From NCBI RefSeq assembly GCF_000702905.1, contig NZ_JNKR01000010.1:1-64000 (forward strand): DNA of 64,000 bases. The letters are read 5' to 3'. Position 1 is the first letter of the stretch. Every line of letters begins with the position of its first letter. The notes under the pieces were generated by a model. The model was not told the DNA's origin. It was given only the letters and a program-made list of their open reading frames with translations, and ran no database searches. Positions 38,214 to 41,861 of this stretch are shown here, piece after piece. The position numbers and the translations under genes are program-made. The stretch is from Mitsuokella jalaludinii DSM 13811. GTDB lineage: Bacteria > Bacillota > Negativicutes > Selenomonadales > Selenomonadaceae.

Positions 38214-39560
38214 TCATGCTTCGGCTTCTTCAACGCTGACGGCGGCTTTATCGGCTGCGAAGACGTCTTTGCGCTGGCCGTTGAGCTTGTACTGGATGGT
38301 CAGGACGAGCAGGCCGGAGACGAGCATGGCGGCACCCATGATGAAGTAGCCGGCATCGAAGGAACCCGTATTGACTTTGACCCAGGCCATCATGTTCGGG
38401 CCGACCCAGCCGCCGAGGTTGCCGCAGGAGTTGATGAGGGCAACGGAGCCGGCGGCAGCAGGGCCGGTGAGGAACGTCGTCGGGATGGTCCACCAGACGC
38501 CCATGGCGGCGTGGATGCCGATAGCGGAGAGGCAGACGAGCGCGAGAGCGACGGGCAGACTCTGAGCAAAAGGCGAGAGGCCGAGGCCAACAGCGCCGAC
38601 GAAGAGTGTGCAGGCTACGTGCCAGACCTTATCGCCTGTCATCGTGGCCGTCTTGCTGATGACGAGCTGGACGAGCAGGGCCGCCGTCATCGGGATGGCG
38701 ATGGCACCGCCGAGCAGCGAGGTCGAGAGACCGGAGAGTTCTTTGAGAACGGTCGGCATCCAGAAGTAGAAGCCCCAGAAACCAACAACCCAGAGGAAGT
38801 AGATCAGGCAGAGCTTGAGGACTTTCGGGTCATGGAATGCTTCGAGAACCGTGTATTTCTTGCGGGACTGCATGGCAGCCTGCTCTTTGTTGAAGTTGTC
38901 CGTCAGGTATTTTTTCTCGGCGTCCGTGAGCCAGCTGACCTGGCCCGGGCGGTCCTTGACGCAGAAGAAGAAGAAGACAGCGAAGGCGAGGGCCGGGATT
39001 GCTTCGAGGATGAAGAGCTCCTGCCAGCCGTGCAGGCCGAAGAAGGAACTCTCGAGCAGCACGCCGGCAATCGGCGCGCCGATGATGTTCGAGAGCAGCA
39101 GCGACGTCAGCATGAGGCTCGTGGCGCGGGCGCGCTCACCGGCCGTGAACCAGCGCGGGAAGAGCACGGAGTAGATGACCGGGTAGAGGCTGGCCTCCGA
39201 CGCGCCCAAGAGGAAGCGGCAGAGGAAGAACTGGAACTCGGTCGAGATAAACGCCATGAAGACGCAGACGAGGCCCCAGGTGAACATGATGCGCGCGATC
39301 CACTTCGTCGCGGAGAAGTGCGAGGCGACGAGCGAGCCCGGGATCTCGAAAATCAGGTAGCCGACGAAGAAGATGCCGGCACCCATGCCGAAGACTTCCG
39401 GCGTGATCCACGGCAGGTCTGCTGTCATCGTGAGCTTTGCGTAGGCGACATTGACGCGGTCGATGCAGGCGATGATCGAGACGAGGAAGACCGGCAGGAT
39501 GATGCGCCAGTCGCGCGCTCGCTTGAGATGGGCAAGATCGACGTTTGCTGCTTGTTCCAT
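38214..39560 (-). CDS. MFS transporter, anion:cation symporter (ACS)-like
   Basis: 448 residues with about twelve membrane helices. The N-terminal half (IDRVNVAYAKLTMTADL, GYLIFEIPGSLVAS, FLLGASEASLYPVIY) matches the ACS family of the major facilitator superfamily, whose members carry organic anions such as hexuronates, phthalate-type acids and others. ATG 39560 has GGAGGT upstream; an in-frame ATG at 39713 lies inside the T-box. A T-box leader controls it, so the substrate is probably an amino acid or a precursor/oxo-acid related to the cognate amino acid rather than a sugar acid (inference). Monocistronic. Confidence 0.85.
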   Translation of the reverse strand: MEQAANVDLAHLKRARDWRIILPVFLVSIIACIDRVNVAYAKLTMTADLPWITPEVFGMGAGIFFVGYLIFEIPGSLVASHFSATKWIARIMFTWGLVCVFMAFISTEFQFFLCRFLLGASEASLYPVIYSVLFPRWFTAGERARATSLMLTSLLLSNIIGAPIAGVLLESSFFGLHGWQELFILEAIPALAFAVFFFFCVKDRPGQVSWLTDAEKKYLTDNFNKEQAAMQSRKKYTVLEAFHDPKVLKLCLIYFLWVVGFWGFYFWMPTVLKELSGLSTSLLGGAIAIPMTAALLVQLVISKTATMTGDKVWHVACTLFVGAVGLGLSPFAQSLPVALALVCLSAIGIHAAMGVWWTIPTTFLTGPAAAGSVALINSCGNLGGWVGPNMMAWVKVNTGSFDAGYFIMGAAMLVSGLLVLTIQYKLNGQRKDVFAADKAAVSVEEAEA

Positions 39561-39640
39561 GATGATACCTCCAAGATAAATGATAGATGAGATGAAAGCA
39601 GTCACAAGATTTCTCAGGGCTGTTCCGAGTGATGGAATAA

Positions 39641-39952
39641 AAATAAAAAATCCGTCCCTCTGAAAGGGACGGATTGATTTCCGCGTTACCACCCAAGTTC
39701 CGTGCCAAAGCACGACGCTCTGACGTACTCAGGCATTCGTAAGGTTCACGACGTACCATCATACGCGGCTCCTGTAACGGGGAGCAGCCGTGGTCGCTTA
39801 CTCTGGTTCAGCGCCATGCCTCGAGGATGATTTTCGGCTTCCTGCTCATCACCGGCTTTCACCATGCCCGGCTCGCTATGCATCAGCACCAGAAGTCTAC
39901 TCTTTCCTGTCTTCAGCTGTATTCGTTATGTGAACTGTTGTTTTGATTACGG
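39641..39952 (-). ncRNA. T-box riboswitch, probable isoleucine (AUC) specifier
   Basis: The conserved T-box AACTTGGGTGGTAACGCGG reads on the minus strand at 39699-39681. Upstream are the AGAGTAGA and AGCGAGCCGGG/GGTGAAAGCCGGT stem I elements, and a GGCTGCTCC...GGAGCC stem III. The terminator arms AATCCGTCCCT (39675-39665) and AGGGACGGATT (39659-39649) precede a long T-rich run. In the specifier loop GAAAATCA, ATC (39831-39829) followed by A is the best reading, hence isoleucine; the specifier call is inference. Uncharged tRNA would favour the antiterminator and expression of the MFS gene. Confidence 0.9.
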
Positions 39953-39957
39953 GTACT

Positions 39958-39986
39958 ATCATAACGCTCGCGTGTAATGTTGTCAA
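39958..39986 (-). promoter_or_regulatory. Promoter of the T-box/MFS transcript
   Basis: On the minus strand, TTGACA (39986-39981), 17-bp spacer, TATGAT (39963-39958). Confidence 0.8.
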
Positions 39987-40082: not shown

Positions 40083-40184
40083 CTTAGAAAATATTTGCCT
40101 GAAAGGTTCGGTTTTTACGCGATGAGAGAGGATTTTGGCCGTGTTTTATAGTATAATAATAACAAGCAGAAAGGAACGATGGAC

Positions 40185-41861
40185 ATGATTTTTGAACGGG
40201 AAGCCGTCATCCACGACGAGGGCGGCATCCATGCGCGCGTCGCGGCGATGATCGTGCAGCGCGCACAGGAACTCTGCAAGCGCTACGATTGCCACCTCTA
40301 CCTGCGCAGCGCGCGCAGCGAGCGCTGTGAGATGCACAGTCTCATGAAGCTCGTGACCCTCAAGGTCGCACAGGGTGACTCAGTCTTCGTCTCGGCGGAG
40401 GGGGACAACGGGCGTCAGGCCGTCATCGAGATGGTGCGCTTCCTCGAGAGCGACTTTATCATGAACGAGGCCTCGGAGATCCACGGCGTCGACAAGCTGC
40501 TGCACGAGAATGCCCTGATGCAGGAGCGCCTGCAGATGATCCTCGAGTCGGTGCAGGACGGCATCTGTGTCGTCGACCGCAGCGGCGAGATCACCTACGT
40601 CAATCCGTCGTATCTGCGCATTGTCCACAAGACGCCGGAGATGGTCATCGGCCAGAACGTCTTTGAGACGGCTGCCGACGGCAATCGCTGTGCCGTGCTT
40701 CGCTCTGGCATCGCGCGCATCGGCAGCATCCGCCACAAGAAGGACGGCACGACGATCGTCGCCAATGTCAACCCAATCTTCGTCGACGGCGAGATTGCCG
40801 GCGTCGTCTCGGTCATCAAGGACATCACGGAAATCCAGACCTTGATGGAGCGCCTGTCGCAAGTCTCGGCCAAAGCGGAGTACCTCGAGCAGGAGCTCCT
40901 GCGCACCAAGAAGACGGCGCAGGCTTTTGCCAACTACATCGGCAAGAGCGGCAAGGTCGTCGACGTGCTGGCGCTGGCCTCGAAGGCGGCGGACTCTTCG
41001 GCCAATGTCCTGATCCGCGGCGAGAGCGGCACGGGCAAGGAGGTCATCGCGGAGGGCATCCACTATGCGAGCGGACGACGTCGCGGCCCCTTCATCCGCG
41101 TCAACTGCGGCGCCATCCCCGGAGCGCTGCTCGAGTCAGAGCTCTTTGGCCACGAGAAGGGTGCTTTCACTGGTGCCGTGCGCCGCAAGCTCGGCAAGTT
41201 CGAGCTCGCCAACCGCGGCACGATCTTCCTCGACGAGATCGGGGAGCTCGACAAGAACCTGCAGGTCAAGCTCCTGCGCGTCTTGCAGCAGAAGGAATTC
41301 GACCGCGTCGGCGGTGAGGAAACCATTCACGTCGATGTGCGCATCATCGCGGCGACGAACCGCGACCTCGAGGCGATGGTCCGCGAGGGCACTTTCCGCG
41401 ATGACCTCTACTACCGCCTCAACGTCATCCCCATCATCCTGCCGCCGCTGCGCGACCGCCCCGACGATATCCCCTTGCTCGTCGAGCACTTCACCGAGAA
41501 GATCAGCAAGGAGAACAAGAAGGCGGTGCGCGGCATCACGCCGGACGCCATGCAGATGTTCATGCACTACCGCTGGCCCGGCAATGTCCGCGAGCTCGAG
41601 AATGTCATCGAGCGCGTGATCACGCTGATGGACACGGACCTCATCACGACAGCCATGCTGCCTTCTTATATAAAGGGCGACATCGCCGGACGCGAGGTGC
41701 AGAGCCTTGCCGATGACACCGTCCTCCCGTGGGAAGAGTACGAGAAGCAGATCATTGCAAACGCCCTTCGCCAGGGAACGAGCTTCAACGGCGCGGCCAA
41801 ACTGCTGCGCATCAGTCACAAGACCGTGGCGGCCAAGGCGCGGAAATACGGCTTGGTATAA
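40185..41861 (+). CDS. Sigma-54 activator with HPr-like, PAS, AAA+ and HTH domains
   Basis: 558 residues. Residues 1-88 are an HPr-like domain: the phospho-His position is kept (H16 in GGIHARV, where HPr has HARP) and so is the regulatory serine (S52, aligned with HPr Ser46). A PAS domain (about 105-220) follows, then a sigma-54 AAA+ module with Walker A GESGTGKE (279-286), the sigma-54 contact motif GAFTGA (326-331) and Walker [10 protein letters not shown]-like, and a C-terminal HTH (about 515-555). It faces ptsHI across a region with palindromic enhancers and a -24/-12 promoter, so ptsHI is the likely target. ATG 40185 has better spacing to AAGGAA (40171) than ATG 40179. EI-dependent phosphorylation of H16 is inference. 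Confidence 0.88.

Follow-up and report, generated by a model that had tools for sequence, protein, structure and literature searches.

An isoleucine T-box leader precedes the gene of an ACS/SLC17-type transporter in Mitsuokella jalaludinii and its relatives: a putative importer of an isoleucine precursor

The locus described here lies in a 64-kb window, the whole stretch of 64,000 nucleotides analysed from the 2.41-Mb draft genome of Mitsuokella jalaludinii DSM 13811, and consists of a leader RNA and a single protein-coding gene. All the leader elements are on the minus strand, as is the transporter gene, and follow one another in the order promoter, T-box, terminator between positions 39986 and 39649. 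A sigma-70-type promoter, TTGACA-17-TATGAT (39958..39986, minus strand), matches the consensus at 11 of 12 bases; two promoter-like sites were seen in the region against 0.5 expected. The T-box leader RNA, from stem I to the antiterminator (39662..39922, minus strand), was recognized by the Rfam covariance model RF00230 over its full length (1-219 of 219) with 105.6 bits, compared with a gathering score of 93, and an E value of 2.8e-22; it is the sole Rfam match within the window. The specifier codon AUC sits in the loop GAAAAUCA (39829..39831, minus strand), and the T-box sequence AACTTGGGTGGTAACGCGG can be read at 39699-39681 of the same strand. Its UGGU bulge (39688..39691) is predicted to base-pair with the NCCA terminus of an uncharged tRNA having discriminator A. 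An intrinsic terminator follows, AATCCGTCCCT-TTC-AGAGGGACGGATT and then TTTTATTTTT (39649..39675, minus strand), with 12 pairs and a T tail; the segment 39700-39641 folds with -21.6 kcal/mol and a z-score of -3.0. Terminator and antiterminator are mutually exclusive, the latter employing GGGTGG...CCGTCCC. An exact Shine-Dalgarno sequence, GGAGGT (39567..39572, minus strand), stands six bases 5' of the ATG at 39560, with which the gene for a 448-residue transporter of the major facilitator superfamily (MFS) begins (38214..39560, minus strand). The two genes behind it, for a DUF386 protein (YhcH/YjgK/YiaL) and a flavodoxin, are both on the other strand, so that one T-box apparently serves one gene in a monocistronic arrangement. 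Elsewhere in the window, on the plus strand, positions 40179-41861 encode a sigma-54 activator whose N-terminal HPr domain has a GIHAR motif and precedes PAS, AAA+ and HTH domains. It lies immediately upstream of genes for an HPr-like protein (42139) and a PTS enzyme I-like protein (42444); a sigma-54 regulator sensing PTS phosphorylation would be unusual.

The leader is not an isolated occurrence. The transporter protein was used to search 189 genomes of the family and 380 of the class, and the DNA upstream of each homologue was scanned for a T-box. One was found directly upstream in 49 of the 50 homologues that are 71% or more identical, and in none of the 25 homologues with 33-60% identity. 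The closest named relative, in Mitsuokella multacida DSM 20544, is 95% identical at the protein level. In a maximum-likelihood tree a single branch (85/98) sets the 49 T-box copies apart, and one change suffices to explain the distribution of the T-box. Two genomes (G162 and G179) each hold both types of copy, with the T-box only on the clade member and none on the distant copy. The lone clade member that has no T-box belongs to a genome (G024) in which no T-box was detected anywhere at E <= 0.001, while members of its family have about a dozen; there the transporter leader was either lost or never present. Another family contributes five Megasphaera-like copies, which nest with strong support within the Selenomonas and Mitsuokella copies; this points to joint transfer of T-box and gene. 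The gene neighbours of the clade vary between genera, which suggests that selection keeps T-box and transporter together; beyond defining the unit as a T-box plus one gene, these neighbourhoods provide no clue. Rfam matches to Plastid-ccsA-ndhD near some of the loci fell under their gathering scores and were taken for plain hairpins. GGGTGG[T/C] occurs in 47 of the 49 orthologous leaders, the variable base being U in 46. The same leader stands 5' of the orthologue in 49 genomes, which puts it beyond chance. Judged by sequence, we regard T-box regulation of the transporter gene as close to certain. The original prediction of a complete T-box leader, with promoter, stem I elements, T-box sequence and terminator/antiterminator, is thus borne out in all its parts, also by the covariance model.

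Which tRNA does the leader read? The specifier frame (+0) is defined as the codon one base before the closing, covarying helix. In an alignment of 29 of the 49 leaders this helix, which adjoins the specifier loop, alternates between A-U and G-C in 15 and 14 rows and between G-C and A-U in 22 and 7 rows; AUC is invariant in all 29, preceded by A or U and followed by A or C, so that the isoleucine codon first read from the single sequence keeps its position in the refined structure. All 49 orthologous leaders carry AUC (48 located through a pattern, one by eye) and none is under another specifier. Neither of the two results that the original prediction had named as refuting it was therefore obtained. 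This frame also gave the expected codon in each of the 12 other T-boxes of the genome, whose codons were read by eye from the leader sequences and whose gene names we presume from the translated starts: UAC before aroF, CUC before leuS and leuA, UGC before cysE, UGG before a trp gene and trpS, UCC before serA, GUC before valS, UUC before pheS, GGC before glyQ, ACC before thrS and AUC before ileS. The loop of the ileS leader is identical to that of the transporter. The UGGU bulge suits a discriminator A, the base expected of tRNA-Ile. No tRNA-Ile(GAU) was found among the tRNA loci read in the draft assembly, where its gene probably lies within an unassembled rRNA operon. AUC accounts for 99% of the isoleucine T-box specifiers in TBDB, and the +0 frame is the one that this database prefers (PMC7778990).

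The assignment of the protein to the ACS type, already part of the original prediction, held up at the levels of family model, profile and fold; the corresponding TC class of organic-anion MFS transporters is 2.A.1.14. MFS_1 is its only Pfam match; in NCBIfam it falls into the ACS group, with 2A0114 first and HpaX second, both under the curated cut-offs, and the DgoT subfamily model TIGR00893 gives 233.7 bits against a cut-off of 395. A profile of the transporter family matches DgoT among the solved structures at 7e-25, and also VGLUT2 and sialin, while the AlphaFold2 model (pLDDT 88) has sialin and DgoT as its best Foldseek matches. With DgoT, the Escherichia coli D-galactonate:H+ symporter (6E9N, 6E9O), the transporter shares the fold. 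DgoT holds the substrate carboxylate through Arg47 and Tyr79 and passes protons along Asp46 and Glu133; the galactonate hydroxyls are bound by Gln164, Gln264, Ser370 and Asn393 (PMC6532931, PMC10149257). In an alignment at about 20% identity, anchored by invariant neighbours, Asp34 and Arg35 in TM1, Tyr68, and Glu122 in TM4 of the transporter correspond to DgoT Asp46, Arg47, Tyr79 and Glu133 and are invariant in 49 of 49 clade members; Arg126 and Asn393 of DgoT are likewise kept in all 49. By contrast, Gln164, Gln264 and Ser370 are replaced by Leu154, Tyr254 and Gly354, so that three of the four hydroxyl-binding residues are lost. Retention of the carboxylate and proton sites with loss of most hydroxyl sites is what one would expect if the protein carried a hydroxyl-poor carboxylate together with protons, and a small, weakly polar monocarboxylate would fit this profile. 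HpaX, the 4-hydroxyphenylacetate permease (TIGR02332), belongs to the same ACS group and carries a monocarboxylate, but at 186 bits the transporter is far under its equivalog cut-off of 615 bits. The LIVCS carriers (BrnQ) are separate genes in the same genome, and their domain PF05525 is absent from the transporter.

The relatives outside the T-box clade offer a second line of evidence. In Megasphaera cerevisiae, Colibacter, Anaeroglobus and a further two members of the class, T-box-less homologues with 54-60% identity reside inside operons that encode a lipoyl-dependent dehydrogenase for a 2-oxo acid or acetoin, typically between E1-beta and E2 and in several cases together with lipoate genes. 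This position is seen in two operons with a lipoyl-E3 (L134:3978-10495 and L135:3971-10473) and in one with a plain E3 (L177:2685-9556). The E1 and E2 components score best as the pyruvate type, in the case of E1 ahead of the branched-chain type, so the context speaks broadly for 2-oxo acids or acetoin. Are the hosts equipped to use such an acid? Irrespective of the presence of the transporter, nearly all of the 57 genomes score above cut-off for ilvC (55) and ilvA (56), and no citramalate synthase reaches the curated cut-off in any genome tested; near-ubiquity on one side and absence on the other leave no useful presence/absence profile for the substrate. Hosts with ilvC and ilvA could nevertheless use an acid precursor, be it a late 2-oxo acid or one from earlier in the pathway. 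An indolepyruvate-type ferredoxin oxidoreductase, which might provide a route from branched acids, is encoded in the M. jalaludinii genome; as a partner of the transporter it was rejected, being present in 22 of 42 genomes with no link to the transporter. BrnQ was likewise discarded as a complementary carrier, since most genomes have it whether or not they hold the T-box transporter; one to three such carriers occur in most hosts of the T-box gene. This genome has two BrnQ copies, neither of them behind a T-box.

Based on these observations, we propose that an isoleucine T-box drives the expression of a proton-coupled ACS/SLC17 importer for a carboxylate precursor of isoleucine, an explanation that we hold to be probable, if only modestly so. 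In T-box regulation, uncharged tRNA favours the antiterminator over the terminator. When isoleucyl-tRNA is scarce, uncharged tRNA-Ile would pair with the AUC specifier and the UGGU bulge, the antiterminator would outcompete the terminator, and RNA polymerase would read through into the transporter gene. The carrier would then bring in the carboxylate together with protons, and the acid would be turned into isoleucine through IlvE or the ilv pathway. The sequences establish the T-box, its AUC specifier, the constancy of the T-box/gene unit and the conserved carboxylate and proton sites; we infer the tRNA response, the direction of transport and the substrate alike. Of the two kinds of cargo that the original prediction had offered, a branched-chain amino acid or a precursor acid, residues and gene context favour the latter. 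The most likely candidates are 2-oxo acids, 3-methyl-2-oxovalerate for example, and 2-methylbutyrate, a known rumen precursor of isoleucine (PMC7356843).

The most serious competitor retains the same T-box control and makes isoleucine itself, and possibly valine and leucine too, the cargo of an inducible amino acid importer. As in the survey of Wels et al. 2008 (PMC2494555), a transporter behind a Firmicutes T-box is usually taken to import the amino acid of its specifier. Moreover, the fold alone is compatible with an amino acid substrate too, given that glutamate and further anions resembling amino acids are cargo of VGLUT and sialin, which belong to the same superfamily (PMC11116495). The protein, however, belongs to an organic-anion family and none of the residue changes suggests a site for an ammonium group; with BrnQ already in most of these genomes, and under no T-box in this one, a second, induced isoleucine carrier is less needed; and dehydrogenase operons are an unexpected place for relatives of an amino acid importer. 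Isoleucine as the cargo thus seems to us unlikely, albeit deserving of serious consideration. Less probable still is a different isoleucine-linked cargo, such as pyruvate, 2-oxobutyrate, an acetolactate-type intermediate or citramalate, or else the export of an accumulating side product. Isoleucine is built from pyruvate and 2-oxobutyrate, and the homologues within operons of pyruvate or acetoin type are in keeping with this idea; against it, IlvA has matches in every genome tested, so that 2-oxobutyrate can be made, the lack of a curated citramalate synthase renders citramalate less likely, and export is without any support. Finally, that the T-box reads another tRNA in a frame shifted by one, as serine (UCA/UCC) or asparagine/tyrosine (AAU/UAU), is very improbable: a serine reading could draw on the A or C that follows AUC, since UCA and UCC each encode serine, yet the covarying helix and the genome's other T-boxes, with serA using UCC in the +0 frame favoured by TBDB (PMC7778990) and ileS sharing the loop, largely refute the serine, asparagine and tyrosine frames.

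How does the importer proposed for an isoleucine precursor relate to known systems? Isoleucine T-boxes and T-box-controlled transporters are both well known (PMC2494555, PMC7778990). The leader has the same stem I, specifier loop, T-box sequence, antiterminator/terminator and AUC specifier as the isoleucine class of RF00230, but in place of ileS, ilv genes or a LIVCS carrier it precedes an MFS anion transporter. The T-box transporters of Wels et al. 2008 are likewise genes directly behind a T-box whose substrate was guessed from the specifier; within the parts of that paper drawn on here, the MFS case in Table 1 has a lysine specifier, the isoleucine cases are ABC or LIVCS carriers, and an ACS/SLC17-type carrier is not mentioned (PMC2494555). 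Our literature search found no report of such a carrier under an isoleucine T-box, which Vitreschak 2008, Gutierrez-Preciado 2009, TBDB or RegPrecise may nonetheless list.

A Megasphaera-like genome (G332) suggests that the arrangement has counterparts. Its two ilvC copies (L194, G332:C1:1040052; L203, G332:C1:629077) are preceded one by a leucine (CUC) T-box and the other by an isoleucine (AUC) T-box, the latter with the same AUC leader as the transporter. In the same genome a valine (GUC) T-box (G332:C1:620730-620979, L215) stands before a BASS-family carrier that is PanS-like, at 222 bits versus 400. PanS, to which this carrier is related, transports ketopantoate/pantoate, and ketopantoate derives from the 2-oxo acid of valine. 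Phenylalanine (UUC) T-boxes precede a second ACS-type MFS gene (G332:C1:1139132-1139351, L220) and an SSS-family symporter (G332:C1:495550-495759, L191), whose products are possible carriers of phenylacetate or phenylpyruvate. This lineage thus repeatedly places carriers of organic-acid families behind T-boxes for amino acids. In another genome, a weak T-box of 74 bits lies 5' of a CstA-like carrier (G004:C21:147685-147941, L214). Rumen microbes are reported to use 2-methylbutyrate for the synthesis of isoleucine, isobutyrate for that of valine, and phenylacetate or phenylpyruvate for that of phenylalanine (PMC7356843). We tentatively suggest that Negativicutes may meet some of their amino acid needs with T-box-controlled importers that take up carboxylate precursors instead of the amino acids, and, equally tentatively, that these importers might comprise the ACS/SLC17 carrier for an isoleucine precursor and, in Megasphaera, the PanS-like BASS carrier under its valine T-box and the ACS and SSS carriers under their phenylalanine T-boxes. 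If this wider reading is true, anaerobes that build amino acids from branched or aryl acids or from the corresponding 2-oxo acids would possess dedicated uptake for them. As for the transporter itself, if our interpretation is right, the RNA ties an otherwise unannotatable family, hosted by the gut and rumen bacteria Mitsuokella, Selenomonas, Pectinatus and Megasphaera, to isoleucine supply, and would point to importers for the branched acids that are known amino acid sources of rumen microbes.
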